From: Truepera sp.
Lineage (GTDB): Bacteria; Deinococcota; Deinococci; Deinococcales; Trueperaceae
NCBI GenBank assembly: GCA_032027045.1
Contig: JAVSMU010000001.1
Location: forward strand, 404,390-468,389
Direction: 5' to 3'
Length of the DNA stretch: 64,000 nt
Each line of letters begins with the position of its first letter. Position 1 is the stretch's first letter. Below the pieces are notes generated by a model, which was not told where the DNA came from, ran no database searches, and saw only the letters and a list, made by a program, of their open reading frames with translations. This document shows, one piece after another, positions 33,990 through 47,666 of this stretch. A program made the position numbers and the translations under genes.

Positions 33990-34019
33990 TTGACAACGAC
34001 TGTTGCAGGGCCGTATGTT
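33990..34019 (+). promoter_or_regulatory. Promoter of the ABC cassette at 34114
   Basis: TTGACA (33990-33995), an 18-base spacer and TATGTT (34014-34019) lie 95 bases before the start codon. CTGTTG (34000-34005) and CAACAG (34024-34029) form an inverted repeat around the -10 element that could be an operator. Confidence 0.5.
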
Positions 34020-34113
34020 TTCACAACAGAACGTGTACAATCCTGTGGACCCCGTCGATGGCTCACTGATAGTTCGACCTCGAAGACGCCCAAGTGGCGG
34101 AAGGAGCAACCGT

Positions 34114-35625
34114 ATGAAGTGTTTCAGGTGGATCGCGATCCTAGCCCTGGTAACGGTCATTGGCAGCGCCAATGCCAAGTCGTTGTCGTTCGTGCTGGAC
34201 AGTGAAAACAACCGGGCCGACGAGGCCCAGGCCATCGCCGCACAGTTACAAGAGATCGGCATCGACGTGCAGGCGCGCGTTTGGGAGTGGACCGTCCTCA
34301 AGGAACAACTCCTCGCGCACAACCGCGATGCCTACTTGACCGACTGGGGCAGCGCCTACTTCGACCCCTTCGACCTGGCCATCCCGAAGTTCGGGACCGC
34401 CGCTCGCGGGAACTACTCCGGGTACTCGAACGAGTTGGTCGACAAAGCGTTCGAGACCGCCTCCACCACCGTTGACGACGCTACGCGGGCCAACGCCTAT
34501 CACGAGGCCCAGCGGCAGATCTTCAACGACGCGCCTTGGGCGTTCGGATACGTGCTGCAGACCATCGAGGCCGCTTCCACCAAGGTCAAGGGCTGGGCGC
34601 CTGCCGCCGACAACAGCGAGAACATGGCCGGCGTCAGCATCGAGGGCGGCGACAGCGTCGTCGTCGGCATGCGCACCAACGCGCTGGTGACGTTCGACCC
34701 CGCCATGTACCGGGACCGCGACACCGAAGCCGTGCTCAGGAACATCTACGATTCGCTGACGACTGCCTCGCGCGAGGGCCAGGTCGGCCCTGGTCTGGCG
34801 ACCGACTGGCGCGTGGTGGACGACGTTACGTTCGAGTTCGACCTCGTTCCCGGAGTCACCTTCTCCAACGGCGAGCCCCTGACGGCCGACGACGTCGTCT
34901 TCACCTTCGGTCGGGTCCTCACCGAGGGCGCCATCGACGGGGCCAGCAGCCCCCGCGCAGGGCTGCTCGGGCCGCTCGATCACGTCGAGAAGGTCGACGA
35001 CCTCACCGTCAGGTTCGTTTACCAGAAGACCTTCCCGCAGGAGCTGCTGCTTCAGGCGCTCACGCACTTCCAGATCGTCCCGCAGGACTACATCACCGAG
35101 GTCGGCAACGCCGGCTTCGCCAGCGCGCCCATCGGCAGCGGCGCCTTCACCTTCCTGCGGGGCAGCCTCGACTCTCAAGTGGTTCTCCAAGCCAACCCCA
35201 GCCACTGGCGTGGCGCTCCCAAGCTTTCCACCGTCGTGTTCCGCATGATGCCGGAACCCTCGACGCGCATCGCGGCCCTGTTGTCAGGCGAGATCCAGAT
35301 CGCTCAGGCCATCCCACCCGACCTGGTTTCCCGCCTCACCGGAGCGCCGAACGTCACCGTGATGACGGCGTTGGGCACGCGCTCCTACCAGCTGGAGTTC
35401 GACGTCACCAAGCCACCCTTCGACGACGTGCGCGTCCGCAAGGCGATCAACTACGCCATCGACTGGGAGAGCATCCTCACGAACCTCTACCAGGGCTACG
35501 GTGAACGCCTCGCCACCGGGTTCCTCCCCAGCGGCTTCGGTTACGACGCCGACCTCGCTCCTTACCCGTACGATCCTGAGAAGGCGCGCGAACTCCTGAA
35601 AGAGGCCGGGTACGACGTCAAGTAG
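34114..35625 (+). CDS. Circularly permuted peptide-type ABC substrate-binding protein (SBP_bac_5)
   Basis: A 503-residue secreted binding protein with the family's parts in swapped order. After a signal peptide (1-21, ending SANA) comes what is normally the C-terminal segment: LSFVLDSENNRADEAQAIAAQ..., the WGSAYFDPFDLAIPKFG and YSNELVD motifs, and EAQRQIFNDAPWAFGYV (about 23-165). The usual mature N-terminus (GGDSVVVGMRTNALVTFDPAMY) begins only at about 178. It runs through LRNIYDSL, FSNGEPLTADDVVFTF and VRKAINYAIDWESI, and the protein stops at YPYDPEKARELLKEAGYDVK. The end joins naturally to the start: in the normally ordered protein at 46107, YPYDPAKAKELLAEAG runs straight into LRYVYDSARG. 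Length is normal for the family. AAGGAG lies 8 bases before the ATG. Confidence 0.85.
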   Translation: MKCFRWIAILALVTVIGSANAKSLSFVLDSENNRADEAQAIAAQLQEIGIDVQARVWEWTVLKEQLLAHNRDAYLTDWGSAYFDPFDLAIPKFGTAARGNYSGYSNELVDKAFETASTTVDDATRANAYHEAQRQIFNDAPWAFGYVLQTIEAASTKVKGWAPAADNSENMAGVSIEGGDSVVVGMRTNALVTFDPAMYRDRDTEAVLRNIYDSLTTASREGQVGPGLATDWRVVDDVTFEFDLVPGVTFSNGEPLTADDVVFTFGRVLTEGAIDGASSPRAGLLGPLDHVEKVDDLTVRFVYQKTFPQELLLQALTHFQIVPQDYITEVGNAGFASAPIGSGAFTFLRGSLDSQVVLQANPSHWRGAPKLSTVVFRMMPEPSTRIAALLSGEIQIAQAIPPDLVSRLTGAPNVTVMTALGTRSYQLEFDVTKPPFDDVRVRKAINYAIDWESILTNLYQGYGERLATGFLPSGFGYDADLAPYPYDPEKARELLKEAGYDVK

Positions 35626-35688: not shown

Positions 35689-36696
35689 ATGCGCCTGCTG
35701 AAACTGCTAGAACGAGTGCTCTCCGCCATCCCGGTCGCGATCGGGGTGGCGGTGATCGCGTTCCTCTTCCTGCGCTTCCTGCCAGGCGACCCGGTAGAGA
35801 TCATGCTGGGCGACACTCAGGTCACCCAGCAACAGATAGACAGCCTCAGGAACCAGCTCAACCTCGATGAGCCCCTCTACCGCCAGCTGTGGTTGTTCCT
35901 CACCGGTCTGGTCCAGGGCGATTTCGGCATGAGCTTCGTGAAGAACCAACCCGTCGTGAAGCTCATTGCCGAAACGCTTCCGGCCACGATCGAGTTGACC
36001 ATCGCCTCCATCCTCTTCGCCATGCTCATCGCCCTGCCGGTCGGGATCATCAGCGCGCTGCGAGAGGGCTCGTGGCTGGACCGCACGGTCTTGTCGGGCG
36101 CGCTGCTAGGCGTAAGCATGCCGGCCTTCTGGTTCGGCTTGCTGCTGATCCTCCTGCTGTCCGTCGAGGCGCACCTCTTGCCGACGTCCGGCCGCATCAG
36201 TTCGACGCTGATGGTAGATCACCGTACCGGCTTCCTACTTATCGACTCGCTACTGGCGGGCGACTTCCGCGCCTTCCGTGACGCCGTCTCCCATCTGATC
36301 CTCCCCGCGCTGACCCTCGGAGTGGTGTTCTCCGCCGTCCTGGCACGCGTGGTGCGCGCCTCGATGATCGAGGCCCTGCATAAGGACTACGTCACCACGG
36401 CGCGCGCCAAGGGGCTCCGCGAGATGGCCGTCATCGTCAAGCATGCCTTGAGGAACGCCCTCATCCCCGCGCTCACGGTGGCCGGGTTGCAGATCGGTGA
36501 ACTGCTCGGGGGCAACATGATCGTCGAGACGGTTTTCGCCTGGCCCGGCATGGGCCGGCTAGTGGTCAGCTCCATCTTCGCCCGTGATTACGTGGTGGTC
36601 CAGGTTGCCGTCATGCTGTACGCGTTCACGTACGTGGGCGTGAACCTCCTGGTCGACGCCCTCTACACGCTTCTCAATCCCCGAATCGCGTTATGA
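35689..36696 (+). CDS. Peptide-type ABC transporter permease (DppB family)
   Basis: A 335-residue permease with the typical N-terminal helix, a long periplasmic loop (FLPGDPVEIMLGDTQVTQQQ...) and five further helices. The EAA-like docking loop is ARAKGLREMAVIVKHALRNALIP. Family features QGDFGMSF, ETVFAWPGMGRL and LLNPRIAL are present. It lies 63 bases after the permuted binding protein and overlaps the next permease by 4 bases. It should pair with the DppC-type permease to import the ligand of the protein at 34114. Confidence 0.92.
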   Translation: MRLLKLLERVLSAIPVAIGVAVIAFLFLRFLPGDPVEIMLGDTQVTQQQIDSLRNQLNLDEPLYRQLWLFLTGLVQGDFGMSFVKNQPVVKLIAETLPATIELTIASILFAMLIALPVGIISALREGSWLDRTVLSGALLGVSMPAFWFGLLLILLLSVEAHLLPTSGRISSTLMVDHRTGFLLIDSLLAGDFRAFRDAVSHLILPALTLGVVFSAVLARVVRASMIEALHKDYVTTARAKGLREMAVIVKHALRNALIPALTVAGLQIGELLGGNMIVETVFAWPGMGRLVVSSIFARDYVVVQVAVMLYAFTYVGVNLLVDALYTLLNPRIAL

Positions 36697-37592
36697 CGCG
36701 CAGCCCTCGGATGATCGCCGGCACCGCCTCGCCCAGACCCCGACCGCTAGGTGCCGTGCTGGCGCTGGCGCGCCGGGTAGTGCGCACGCCCCTGGGCCTG
36801 ATCAGCATGGGGGTGGTGGCGTTGTACATAGTCATGGCCATCTTCGCGCCGCTGATCGCCCCTTACGCGCCCGACGCGACCTCCCTCGGAGCACGGCTGC
36901 GGCCCCCGTCGTTGGAGCACCTGTTCGGTACCGACTCCCTCGGGCGCGACATCTTGAGCCGCACCATCTATGGCGCGCGAGTCAGCCTCATGATCGGGAT
37001 GATCACGGTGGCGATTACCGCGACGTTCGGTACGGCCCTGGGCGCGTTCGGCGGCTATTTCCGCGGCGGGTTCGATGCCGTCACCGGGCGGCTGACGGAG
37101 CTGCTCCTGGCGTTCCCGTACCTGATTTTCGCCATCGGGATGATGGCGTTCTTGGGGCCCGGTTTCATGAACCTGGTGATAGCACTCTCGCTCAAGGGTT
37201 GGGTGGAGTTCTACCGCCTGGCGCGCGGCCAGACCCTGGACCAGGCCCAGCTCGAGTACGTGGAGGCATCGCGCGCACTCGGCCAGCGCGGCCTGCGTAC
37301 CCTTTTCAGGGAGGTCCTGCCGAACGTGCTGCCCGCGACGGTGGTGCTGGCGACCCTACGCGTCGGCTACTTCATGGTGCTCGAGGCCTCGCTCAGCTTC
37401 CTCGGCGTCGGCATCCCTCCCAACATCCCGGCCTGGGGCTCGATGATCGCCGACGGCAGGAACGTACTGTTCATCGCCTGGTGGGTCAGCACGATCCCCG
37501 GCATAGCGCTTCTCATACTGGTACTTGCGATCAACCTCCTGGGCGAGCGCCTCCAGGAGATCTACGACCCGAAGCGAAGGGGCAAGCGATGA
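36693..37592 (+). CDS. Peptide-type ABC transporter permease (DppC family)
   Basis: A 299-residue permease. Diagnostic segments are HLFGTDSLGRDILSRTIYGARVSL, the docking loop ASRALGQRGLRTLFREVLPNVLP and FLGVGIPPNIPAWGSMIADGRN. It begins in an ATGA overlap with the DppB-type gene and ends in another with the C26 peptidase, so the four genes from 34114 to 38314 are one operon. No ATPase gene is present, so the permeases must borrow one from elsewhere in the genome. Confidence 0.92.
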   Translation: MTRSPRMIAGTASPRPRPLGAVLALARRVVRTPLGLISMGVVALYIVMAIFAPLIAPYAPDATSLGARLRPPSLEHLFGTDSLGRDILSRTIYGARVSLMIGMITVAITATFGTALGAFGGYFRGGFDAVTGRLTELLLAFPYLIFAIGMMAFLGPGFMNLVIALSLKGWVEFYRLARGQTLDQAQLEYVEASRALGQRGLRTLFREVLPNVLPATVVLATLRVGYFMVLEASLSFLGVGIPPNIPAWGSMIADGRNVLFIAWWVSTIPGIALLILVLAINLLGERLQEIYDPKRRGKR

Positions 37593-38314
37593 AGCCACGC
37601 ATCGGCATCACCGTCCACATGGCGGAGCACTCGGAAGGCCGCAACCAAGCGGAGGTCAGGTTCTCACTCACCGCGCGTTACGCAGAAGCGGTGCTGGAGG
37701 CGGGCGGCCTGCCACTCCTTCTGCCGACTCACCCCGACTCCGCGGCGCCTCCGGCCGAGGTCGTGAGCATCGTCGATGGCCTGCTCTTGAGCGGTGGCGG
37801 CAGCCTCCCGCGCCAGTACTTCGCCGACAATCCCAACCCCAGCCTGCGCCAGACCAACCCGCTTCGCTTCGATGTCGAAGTGGCGCTGGTTCGAGCAGCC
37901 CGCGCCGAACGCCTGCCCATCCTAGGGATCTGCCGCGGCCACCAGACGATGCTGGAGGCCCTCGGCGGCGCCCCCGTCAGGAACCTAGATGCCGAGGCGG
38001 GCGACGCCGACCACTACCAGAGCCAGCCGAGCGACGTTACTACGCATGGGCTTCGGACCGTGCCCGGGTCGCGCCTGGCCGGTTGGCTTGGCGAGGAAAC
38101 GCGCGTGAACAGCTTCCACCGCCAGGTCGTACAAGAAGTGCCGCCCGGCTGGCGGGTCGCGGCGTGGTCGGACGACGGGCTCGTCGAGGCGATCGAGGCC
38201 AGCGAGGGCTTCGCCATCGGCCTACAGTTCCACCCCGAGTGGCTGGAGCAGCGAGAGCCCGCGTTCCGCCGGATATTCGAGGCGTTCGTGGCGGCCGCCG
38301 CCGCTCGTTCGTGA
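37589..38314 (+). CDS. Peptidase C26 / gamma-glutamyl-gamma-aminobutyrate hydrolase-like protein
   Basis: A 241-residue class I glutamine amidotransferase-like hydrolase. The nucleophile elbow GICRGHQ contains Cys115, and the His-Glu pair is FHPEW (His215, Glu217). The loop DGLLLSGGGSLPRQYF is typical of PuuD-type enzymes that cleave gamma-glutamyl amides. Translational coupling to the importer suggests that it processes the imported compound, perhaps a gamma-glutamyl or muropeptide-like molecule; that is inference. Confidence 0.85.
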   Translation: MKPRIGITVHMAEHSEGRNQAEVRFSLTARYAEAVLEAGGLPLLLPTHPDSAAPPAEVVSIVDGLLLSGGGSLPRQYFADNPNPSLRQTNPLRFDVEVALVRAARAERLPILGICRGHQTMLEALGGAPVRNLDAEAGDADHYQSQPSDVTTHGLRTVPGSRLAGWLGEETRVNSFHRQVVQEVPPGWRVAAWSDDGLVEAIEASEGFAIGLQFHPEWLEQREPAFRRIFEAFVAAAAARS

Positions 38315-38334: not shown

Positions 38335-39369
38335 TCAGTCCCGGTTGAAGTGTTGCCAGGCCTGCTCGGCCGCGGCCAGCCTCTCCGAGGCCTCCGGTAG
38401 GGCGGCCTCGACCAAGGTAAGCAGCACGTGGCTGACGCTTACGAGGGCCGTGTACGAGTCGAGCACGCCAGTGCTCCCGGTGTGGGCCCTGAGAATGCGT
38501 GCGCCGTGTGGAACGTTGTTGCCTGGGCTGGCATCGGTCAGCACCGTCACCGGCACCCCCGCCGCGGTCAGGTAGCGAAGTGTCCGCTGCACCTCGCGCG
38601 AATGGCGCCTGAGCGAGACCACGAGCACGAAGTCGTCGGAACCGAGGTCGAAGAGTTGGTCGACCGAGGCACCACCGGGCGTAGGCGCCGCATCGACCAG
38701 CTGGCGCATGGTGCGCAGGACCAAGGCCATATGCAGGGCTATCGGGTACGAGAAGCGCCGGCCGAACAAGACCACCCGTCGCCCCTTCGCCAGGCCCTCC
38801 GCGGTGGCCTCGAGCGCATCCTGGTCGAGGTGGGCGTAACTGCGCTGCAGGTTCCTTTGATCGCGGTGGTACACGGCCTGGACCTGGCGGCTCCCGCCGG
38901 CGCCGGGATCGGTGAGGACCAGGTCGGAAGGTGTCGAGACCACCTCCAGGTAGGCGGCGCGCGCCGCCTCCTGAAGCTCTGGATAGCCCTGGAAACCGAC
39001 GTGCTGCGCGAAGCGCACGATGGTCGAGCGGTGAACACCAAGCTCCGCAGCAACCTCCGTGCTCGAGAGGTAGCCCCAGCGGTCGAGGTGCTCGAGCATG
39101 TGTGCAGCCAGCCGCCGCTCCTGGGGGGTCAGGGCCTCGGCGGTGTGGTCCAGTCGGTCGAGTATGGCCGCAGACTGATGGGCGGTCGGTGCGCCGGCGT
39201 TTTCGGCGTTCGTACCGGCGCCCGCGGCGTCCGCACCGGAGGCCGCGGCGTCCGCATCGGGCCCGTCACCTGGTCGCCCGGGAACTGCACCTTGTTCCGC
39301 GCCTCGTTGCCCGGGAGCTGCACCGCGTTTCTTCGATGTGCCCCGAGCGGCCTTGGGCTTTGACGCCAT
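38335..39369 (-). CDS. RpiR-family transcriptional regulator (HTH + SIS)
   Basis: A 344-residue regulator. A low-complexity Ala/Gly/Asp-rich N-terminus (about 1-65) precedes an RpiR-type HTH (STEVAAELGVHRSTIVRFAQHVGFQGYPELQE) and a SIS sugar-phosphate-binding domain (VVLFGRRFSYPIALHMALVLRTM, then LVVSLRRHSREVQRTL). RpiR proteins usually sense phosphosugars or amino-sugar compounds. It ends 20 bases from the convergent C26 gene and is the likely regulator of that import operon. The ATG at 39369 is the first in-frame start with plausible protein sequence. Confidence 0.88.
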   Translation of the reverse strand: MASKPKAARGTSKKRGAAPGQRGAEQGAVPGRPGDGPDADAAASGADAAGAGTNAENAGAPTAHQSAAILDRLDHTAEALTPQERRLAAHMLEHLDRWGYLSSTEVAAELGVHRSTIVRFAQHVGFQGYPELQEAARAAYLEVVSTPSDLVLTDPGAGGSRQVQAVYHRDQRNLQRSYAHLDQDALEATAEGLAKGRRVVLFGRRFSYPIALHMALVLRTMRQLVDAAPTPGGASVDQLFDLGSDDFVLVVSLRRHSREVQRTLRYLTAAGVPVTVLTDASPGNNVPHGARILRAHTGSTGVLDSYTALVSVSHVLLTLVEAALPEASERLAAAEQAWQHFNRD

Positions 39370-39478
39370 ACCGCCTAGCCTAAAGGAATATCCACGTAGG
39401 GGAGTGGCAACTTCGACGCACCCGCGGGTGCGTCGAAGCAGGAGCCGACCGCGGCGCGACCGCGAATAGAATGTTCCC

Positions 39479-39919
39479 GTGGACGCTCGGGTCAACTTCA
39501 TCACGCTCGCGGTGGCGGATCTCGGCGCCTCGCGGGCCTTCTACGTGGACGGGCTCGGCTGGGAACCCGCTTTCGAGGCGTCGGGCGAGGTCCTGTTCAT
39601 CCGCCTGTCGCCAACGTTGGTCCTGTCACTCTGGCGAGCGGAGGAATTCGAGGATGAGGTCGGCGCCATACGCGAGGGACCAGGCGCGTCGCCCTTCACG
39701 CTCGCCCACAACGTTGGATCTCCGGCAGCGGTCGACGCAGCGCTCGCTATGGCGGTCGAGGCGGGCGGCGCCATCCTCAAGCCCGCAATGCAGCGCGACT
39801 GGGGCGGTTACTCGGGCTATTTCACCGATCCCGACGGCTTCGTTTGGGAAGTTGCATACAACCCCGGCCCTATCGGCGTGTCGCTGTTGCAGGCCACGGA
39901 TCCGTACGAACCTCGGTAG
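39479..39919 (+). CDS. VOC-family glyoxalase-like protein
   Basis: A 146-residue single-domain VOC protein opening VNFITLAVADLGASRAFYVDGLGWEP and closing GGYSGYFTDPDGFVWEVAYNP, which supplies the usual Glu ligand. It starts at a GTG. The family covers glyoxalases, bleomycin- and fosfomycin-type resistance proteins and dioxygenases. The first-strand ligand position here is a Thr or Asn rather than His, so activity may differ. No operon partner. Confidence 0.75.
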   Translation: MDARVNFITLAVADLGASRAFYVDGLGWEPAFEASGEVLFIRLSPTLVLSLWRAEEFEDEVGAIREGPGASPFTLAHNVGSPAAVDAALAMAVEAGGAILKPAMQRDWGGYSGYFTDPDGFVWEVAYNPGPIGVSLLQATDPYEPR

Positions 39920-46106: not shown

Positions 46107-47666
46107 ATGCCCTGGTTAAACCCAAAGCGCGCGCTGTTCGTTCTCGCCGCGCTTCTGCTCGCCGCCCCGGCCCTGGCGCAGGACACGCCCGTCAAGGGCG
46201 GCACCGCCATCGTCGTTCTCGGATCCGACCCCGAGCACCTCAACCCGGGCATCAGCACCAGCTACCCGGTGGGCGCCGTGGGCGCCAACGTCTTCAGCGG
46301 CCTGGTACGCCTTGCTGCTAGCGGCCGCCCCGAGGGTGACCTCGCCGAAAGCTGGACCGTGTCGGACGACAACCTCACGTACACCTTCAAGCTGCGGCAG
46401 GCGAACTTCCACGACGGCACCCCGGTGACCAGCGCCGACGTCGTCTACTCCATGGTCGAGATAGAGGCCCCGAATCACGGGCGCTTCAAGACCGCCTACG
46501 ACAAGATCGCCTCGATCGAGGCCCCGGACGCCGAGACCGTGGTCATCACGCTCAAGGAACCGTACGCGCCGCTCTTGAGCCTGCTCTCCGTGTTCGACGC
46601 CCCCGTGCTGCCGAAGCACCTCTACGAGGGCACCGACCCCCTCACCAACGCGGCCAACAACGCCCCCGTCGGCAGCGGCCCCTTCAAGTTCGCCGATTGG
46701 GTGCGCGGCGAGCGCGTCGAGATCGTGCGCAACGACGACTACTACCTGGAACCCGCCCTGCTGGACAAGCTCATCTTCCGCATCGTGCCGCAAGACGTTG
46801 GGCGCTCCACCGCGCTCGAGGTCGGCGAGGCAGACCTGCTGTGGGGCTTCTACATGCCGCCCGCCGATCTCCCGCGCCTGGCCGCCGACAAGGACATCAA
46901 CACCTGGACGGGCATCACCATCCCCGCCCTCTACTTCGTCTTCATCAACACCAACACGCCCGGCCTCGACGACGCGCGCGTGCGCCAGGCCATCATGTAC
47001 GCGGTCGACCGCGACCAGGTCGTCGAGCAGGCCCAGGGCGGCCTCGGCCAGGCCGGCTCGGGCCCCTTCGGCGCCGGCTTCCCCTACGCCTACGATGAGG
47101 CGACCGACTACCGCACCCTCTACCCCTACGACCCGGCGAAGGCCAAGGAACTGCTCGCCGAGGCGGGCGTCACGGGCCTCAAGCTGCGCTACGTGTACGA
47201 CTCCGCACGTGGCGCGTTCGCGGCCGCCGGCGACATCATGCGCGACCAGCTCAAGCAGGTCGGCATCGACCTCGTGCTGCAGCCGGCCGAGCGCGCCGTC
47301 ATGGTCGACCGCGTCTACAAGGGCGACTATGACCTCAGTATGCAGTCGTTCACCTCGGGCGGCGACCCGGCCATCGGCTACCACCGCATCTACCACAGCG
47401 CGGAGCCCGGCACGCCGTTCGTGAACGCCACCGGCTACGCCGACCCCGACGTCGACTCGTGGCTGGCCGAGGCCGGCGGCCTCGCAGACCAGAACGCGCG
47501 CGCCGTTTACTACCACCTGCTCGACGAGAAGCTCTCGAAGGACGTGCCGGTGATGGTCATGTTCGACGAGCTGGCGTCCGAGGCCTCCTCGGCCAACCTG
47601 CGGGGGATGCGCACGCTCCTCGACCAGCGCGACGGCCTCGAGTTCCTCTGGTTCGCGAAGCCGTGA
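46107..47666 (+). CDS. Peptide/nickel-type ABC substrate-binding protein (SBP_bac_5)
   Basis: A 519-residue secreted binding protein in the normal domain order. The signal peptide is 1-25 (ALAQ), the mature start is GGTAIVVLGSDPEHLNPGIS, then ESWTVSDDNLTYTFKLRQANFHDGTPVTSADVVYSM, VRQAIMYAVDRDQVVEQA, YPYDPAKAKELLAEAG, and the C-terminal lobe. AAAGGTAGGT precedes the ATG. It heads a cassette with two permeases and three enzymes of nucleoside and peptide breakdown. This suggests that its ligand may be a nucleoside, purine or peptide; family members bind all kinds of oligomeric ligands. Confidence 0.92.
   Translation: MPWLNPKRALFVLAALLLAAPALAQDTPVKGGTAIVVLGSDPEHLNPGISTSYPVGAVGANVFSGLVRLAASGRPEGDLAESWTVSDDNLTYTFKLRQANFHDGTPVTSADVVYSMVEIEAPNHGRFKTAYDKIASIEAPDAETVVITLKEPYAPLLSLLSVFDAPVLPKHLYEGTDPLTNAANNAPVGSGPFKFADWVRGERVEIVRNDDYYLEPALLDKLIFRIVPQDVGRSTALEVGEADLLWGFYMPPADLPRLAADKDINTWTGITIPALYFVFINTNTPGLDDARVRQAIMYAVDRDQVVEQAQGGLGQAGSGPFGAGFPYAYDEATDYRTLYPYDPAKAKELLAEAGVTGLKLRYVYDSARGAFAAAGDIMRDQLKQVGIDLVLQPAERAVMVDRVYKGDYDLSMQSFTSGGDPAIGYHRIYHSAEPGTPFVNATGYADPDVDSWLAEAGGLADQNARAVYYHLLDEKLSKDVPVMVMFDELASEASSANLRGMRTLLDQRDGLEFLWFAKP

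Follow-up and report, generated by a model that had tools for sequence, protein, structure and literature searches.

Evidence for a natural circular permutation in the cluster C (SBP_bac_5) solute-binding protein of a Truepera DppB/DppC-type operon

Natural circular permutations have usually been inferred between very distant proteins. Among solute-binding proteins (SBPs), Tp0684 (TpMglB-2) of Treponema pallidum, a Type I protein assigned to 'cluster Bc', is naturally permuted, has kept binding and closure, and has tethered members; its break lies within the N lobe, and the moved part is 13% similar, such that a different source for it could not be excluded (PMC4990184). Glycine-betaine-binding and molybdate-binding proteins, at <24% identity, stand in a permutation relation that was found by structure (CPSARST, PMC2395249). 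The kind of event is thus not unprecedented, having been published for these other binding-protein classes. For cluster C (SBP_bac_5), a limited search of the open-licence literature found no published permutation, which agrees with the statement of an earlier note on this DNA that none had been described in the family. In the cluster C protein DppA of Escherichia coli, R383 and D436 hold the two dipeptide ends, with D436 at the amino end (PMC12136057).

The window analysed here is a stretch of 64,000 nucleotides from Truepera sp. (contig JAVSMU010000001.1). It encodes an SBP_bac_5 protein whose segments occur in rotated order, and a normally ordered paralogue:

34114-35625, + strand: permuted SBP_bac_5 gene, an ORF of 503 codons plus stop
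34114..34179, + strand: signal peptide, residues 1-22, MKCFRWIAILALVTVIGSANA; pLDDT is low at residues 1-19
34180..34644, + strand: C-terminal lobe of SBP_bac_5 in first place, residues 23-177, of which 24-176 correspond to linear profile positions 385-537
34645..35622, + strand: N-terminal part of SBP_bac_5 in second place, residues 178-503, ending YPYDPEKARELLKEAGYDVK; residues 179-500 correspond to linear profile positions 63-377, and Pfam PF00496 covers 224-501
46107..47666, + strand: normally ordered paralogue from another operon, serving as internal control, with a single PF00496 stretch (75-432 corresponding to 2-364)

The order proposed earlier, signal peptide then C-terminal lobe then N-terminal part, is confirmed by Pfam, phmmer and profile matches; each part is indeed present once, and the proposed boundaries (23, 177, 178 and 503) agree with the profile alignments to within one or two residues. 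PF00496 is matched in two stretches (283.2 bits, cut-off 32.4). By phmmer, the C-terminal-lobe segment, which contains Arg34 and the DWGSAYFDP motif, matches the C-terminal ends of PDB SBPs, and PDB 5u4o is matched in swapped order, with residues 187-500 on chain positions 50-359 and residues 37-161 on 378-505. The Pfam matches include no Type I SBP families, and the PDB sequence matches shown are of the family-5 type. The protein encoded at 46107, taken by the earlier note as its reference, is normally ordered as stated, but as a paralogue it is distant, and other genomes encode linear sisters that are much closer.

Rotation of the sequence restores the family order. A first linear profile, for which 11 homologues of normal order were used, matches the unrotated protein in the two stretches listed above, and matches the rotated protein in one stretch, model 64-536, at 393.6 bits versus 298 for the best stretch of the protein as is. 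A second profile represented the nearest linear subfamily, and all rotations of the protein were scanned against it in steps of 5; the optimum was a rotation of 155 residues, which scored 592.7 bits over model 2-482, while the protein as is gave two stretches of 399.4 and 173.5 bits. The linear-order alignment, which by the earlier note's own criterion would refute the permutation if it scored as well, scores far below the rotated one. The swapped profile stretches, and their union into a single stretch only after rotation, support the proposed circular permutation; since the collinear family order is absent, the protein is a permuted variant of SBP_bac_5 rather than an ordinary member. It has the same segments, rotated and each present once, with the old termini joined, and it shares an ancestor with the linear form.

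A normal fold is predicted for the permuted chain. AlphaFold, run on 29 permuted sequences alone, gave pLDDT 91.7 and pTM 0.86, with high confidence across the joint of the old termini. Foldseek, which is bound to sequence order, aligned DppA, AppA, NikA and relatives over about 340-385 columns at TM of about 0.46-0.57, and none of the 50 best matches listed covered the whole chain; because Foldseek needs the same order, such partial alignment, to the N-part only, is as expected for a permutation. Four close permuted pairs have dN/dS of 0.06-0.14.

Recurring end points mark the permuted form in some 47 different proteins, which come from Deinococcota, Bacillota, a small phylum labelled Armatimonadota/Bacillota, and single genomes elsewhere; the form has been retained over long evolutionary time in several bacterial phyla. 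One genome-collection scan found 29 loci labelled Deinococcota/Trueperaceae, Bacillota (many Fermentithermobacillaceae), Armatimonadota and Deltaproteobacteria, and the full-length members among them have the swapped stretches with end points differing by a few residues at most. Six Deinococcota genomes, including that of the window, have intact copies. The survey of a Bacillota-side phylum found 24 full-length permuted proteins and one cut by a contig end among 398 genomes, several of them on a single multi-megabase contig; the phylum of locus L046 yielded nine among the 43 genomes surveyed, and two further phyla yielded single cases. Each of 13 individually scanned genomes has one permuted copy, scoring 690-950 bits against <=285 for other paralogues.

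This distribution bears on whether the gene is a product of faulty assembly, in which two neighbouring normal copies were misjoined, as could be imagined in a genome family rich in SBP_bac_5 paralogues. The other five Deinococcota copies, at 66-69% identity, have identical joints, the gene lies on complete chromosomes in some cases, and the permuted proteins form one clade with low dN/dS. Orthologues in these relatives and in dozens of other genomes share the joints, and identical end points in independent assemblies exclude chance and misassembly; we reject the latter, suggested by the earlier note as a possible refutation, as vanishingly improbable.

Some individual loci require comment: (i) Also among the Deinococcota, Meiothermus rufus DSM 22234 (L021 9385-10145 and L022 1-1377) has a broken permuted gene: an insertion-sequence-like end (GGACTTACGCAGTTG...GCAACTGCGTAACTCC) interrupts it at the C/N joint, and the gene's 3' part and the start of the permease are absent. 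(ii) One permuted gene (L032 5180-6916, the same place as L084) has one in-frame TAG at a conserved-residue position, which may be a sequencing error, a pseudogene mutation or a recoded stop. (iii) A 324-aa frame in genome G315 was rejected as a split gene, since the end of the contig cuts it. (iv) Matches in G110:C8 and G229:C1 that start before the old N terminus proved to be ordinary linear proteins (tree rows N_L133 and N_L123).

In the Bacillota-side phylum, about 20 genomes encode proteins with unusually strong matches to the permuted-family profile, though in two pieces. For the best five (L097-L101) the rotated profile gives a single uninterrupted match of 700-767 bits, which marks them as un-permuted sisters; they are 47-60% identical to permuted members once rotated, and one of them, L098, has normal order with a single PF00496 stretch. 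Between the permuted L031 and L098, 483 residues align at 58.8% identity, and the sole internal gap falls at the break, where LLKEAGYAVK and AKTLSLVID, on its two sides in L031, face LLKEAG-VRDLKVVID. The best permuted/linear pair is L031 with L099, at 60.0% identity. The old termini are almost directly fused, with the linear C terminus NLHDVGLK and the linear mature N terminus GGTIVIAL represented by NLHDVTLKDGDTIVVGM.

A tree of 92 rows was built by quick search with SH-aLRT support. Its 47 permuted rows form one clade (98), lying beside the linear L097-L100 (99) and within a larger linear group. Trees of the N-part and of the C-part each keep the permuted clade (95 and 95), although that of the N-part leaves its exact sister unsettled. 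This placement shows that the permutation happened once, within a subfamily whose other members are normally ordered.

The same layout would result if a C-lobe fragment of one binding protein had been fused upstream of a different protein's N-part, which is formally possible and has been raised as an option for Tp0684. Each half, however, gives the same single clade in the same linear subfamily, which argues against such a chimera; furthermore, both halves find strong matches in the linear sisters (about 530 and 225 bits), gaps are nearly absent from the rotated alignment, and none of the linear proteins seen lay much nearer to one of the halves. We therefore reject a chimera as very unlikely. 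Nor is it at all probable that the permuted order is ancestral in the subfamily and that L097-L132 reverted to normal order, a scenario that we judge extremely unlikely and reject on tree placement. The midpoint root of the tree serves for drawing only, and so does not itself speak against reversion, but normal order holds throughout the outer SBP_bac_5 lineages, with every matched solved structure among them, and linear rows surround the permuted clade, so that reversal would need more changes.

We are highly confident that the gene encodes a functional, exported SBP_bac_5 (cluster C) protein, the product of a single circular permutation in an ancestor of normal order. One tandem duplication followed by trimming is the simplest and most likely history. 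A normally ordered SBP gene would have been duplicated in tandem, and the C-terminal part of copy 1 fused to the N-terminal part of copy 2; the outer halves would then have been lost, with the signal peptide of copy 1 retained and now lying ahead of the C-terminal lobe. The old N and C termini are joined with almost no linker (NLHDVxL-xGDTIVVGM), and the new termini lie in the loop that follows the helix YxYxPEKAKxLLxEAG. A duplicated intermediate was not found among the genomes examined. The product would take the ordinary two-lobed clam shell fold and would hand its solute to the adjacent DppB/DppC permeases, presumably powered by the only DppD/DppF ATPase pair of the genome, which lies at another locus. 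The window protein lacks the lipobox that is present in several Bacillota members (L031 and L050 have the lipobox-like LVPGC/AVPGC).

The permuted gene heads an operon with these surroundings:

33990..34019, + strand: probable promoter/operator, with TTGACA at 33990-33995, an 18-base spacer containing TGTTGCA, and TATGTT at 34014-34019; ACAACA follows
35689..36696, + strand: DppB-type permease (PF00528 and PF19300)
36693..37592, + strand: DppC-type permease (PF00528 and PF12911 OppC_N)
37580..38314, + strand: Peptidase C26 / class-I glutamine amidotransferase-like (PuuD-like) gene, overlapping the permease end (PF07722, 178 bits); start codon chosen within the ORF
38335..39504, - strand: RpiR-family regulator (HTH_6 and SIS; PF01418, PF01380); translation may truly begin further downstream than the ORF start given here

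Permuted and linear-sister loci share the order SBP-B-C, frequently extended by D and F ATPase genes, and in most of those examined a DppB-type gene comes after the SBP. The C26 gene recurs beside both types of operon, and C26, GntR/RpiR regulators, AtuA (PF07287) and DUF4387 recur near permuted genes. AtuA-like and DUF4387 genes, often paired, adjoin the permuted-SBP transporter at L023, L025, L026, L021, L030, L051, L136, L141 and L144; the AtuA-like gene of the window genome is far from its permuted gene (G000:C1:2888337-2889395). The window genome has many Dpp-type SBP genes versus a single DppD/DppF-type ATPase pair. This sole oligo_HPY pair is distant from the operon (C1:1549434-1550671), and being single and distant it is probably common to several of the genome's importers.

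An element (33990-34030; TTGACAAC...TGTTGCA...ACAACA) overlaps the sigma-70-like promoter upstream of the permuted gene. It is kept in four other Deinococcota genomes, hence in five Trueperaceae-type genomes, and weakly in Meiothermus rufus, with the consensus TTGACAACn3TGTTGCA...TATnTTn...ACAACAG...GTGTA, from which we read 33990-34019 as a probable promoter/operator. RpiR homologues adjoin the permuted gene in genomes G002, G005 and G009, in M. rufus and at L056; the RpiR-family gene of the window is a candidate regulator of the operon, and 33990-34030 a candidate RpiR operator.

One permuted protein departs from this setting. At L048 (7929-13604) a single 1892-aa frame fuses a permuted SBP to three SBP_bac_3 domains, one PAS domain and a receiver-bearing histidine kinase, and two response-regulator-like genes follow. 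From its domain content this fusion reads as a sensor kinase whose input domain is permuted. It could suggest that permuted proteins do not work in import and have another role, such as signal input, but this locus is one of about 47 and most others examined head a permease operon; a role other than import is very unlikely for the window protein.

As to the ligand, DppA R383 aligns within one residue of Arg34, in an alignment made to a linear sister and off by one; Arg34 is nearly invariant in an alignment of 29 permuted proteins. DppA D436 aligns to Ala81. From these two alignment columns, the substrate is probably a carboxylate-bearing solute and not a plain dipeptide. Peptidase C26 enzymes include gamma-glutamyl hydrolases, so our first guess would be gamma-glutamyl compounds.

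This case is of special value because a close un-permuted sister shares its operon context. With permuted and un-permuted forms up to 60% identical, colinear bar the cut, and in the same operon type, one can test directly how permutation affects folding, lobe closure, membrane tethering and permease docking; with un-rearranged close cousins in the same cluster type, the event is open to before/after study. The native cut and joint are ready positions for engineering cluster C biosensors. Automatic annotation reports a partial SBP_bac_5 match and misses the rearrangement. Perhaps one ancient permutation gave rise to a stable new cluster C subclass because its new termini bring an advantage, a tentative idea that we consider rather doubtful; if it is true, the free C terminus, like the signal peptide or anchor, leaves from the other lobe, altering docking or tethering, and C-terminal fusion to sensor kinases becomes possible, as at L048.

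Compared with known systems, the window protein is like Tp0684 in being a naturally permuted solute-binding protein, but Tp0684 is a sugar binder of an unrelated SBP class, and no MglB or Type I SBP homology was found in Pfam or in the PDB sequence matches shown. The glycine-betaine/molybdate pair likewise exhibits a permutation between binding proteins, but joins very distant families outside cluster C. With DppA, OppA, AppA and NikA (PF00496, cluster C) the window protein has in common all segments, the signal peptide, the DppB/DppC-type operon and probably the fold; it differs in the rotation of the segments, with the new termini between the YPYDPEKARELLKEAG helix and the following strand, and, versus DppA, in the alignment column of the Asp at the dipeptide amino end, where it has Ala81. 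Closest are the linear sisters L097-L101, up to 60% identical after rotation, with the same SBP-B-C-D-F operon order and, in one case, an adjoining C26-like gene; they differ from the permuted proteins in their normal order.
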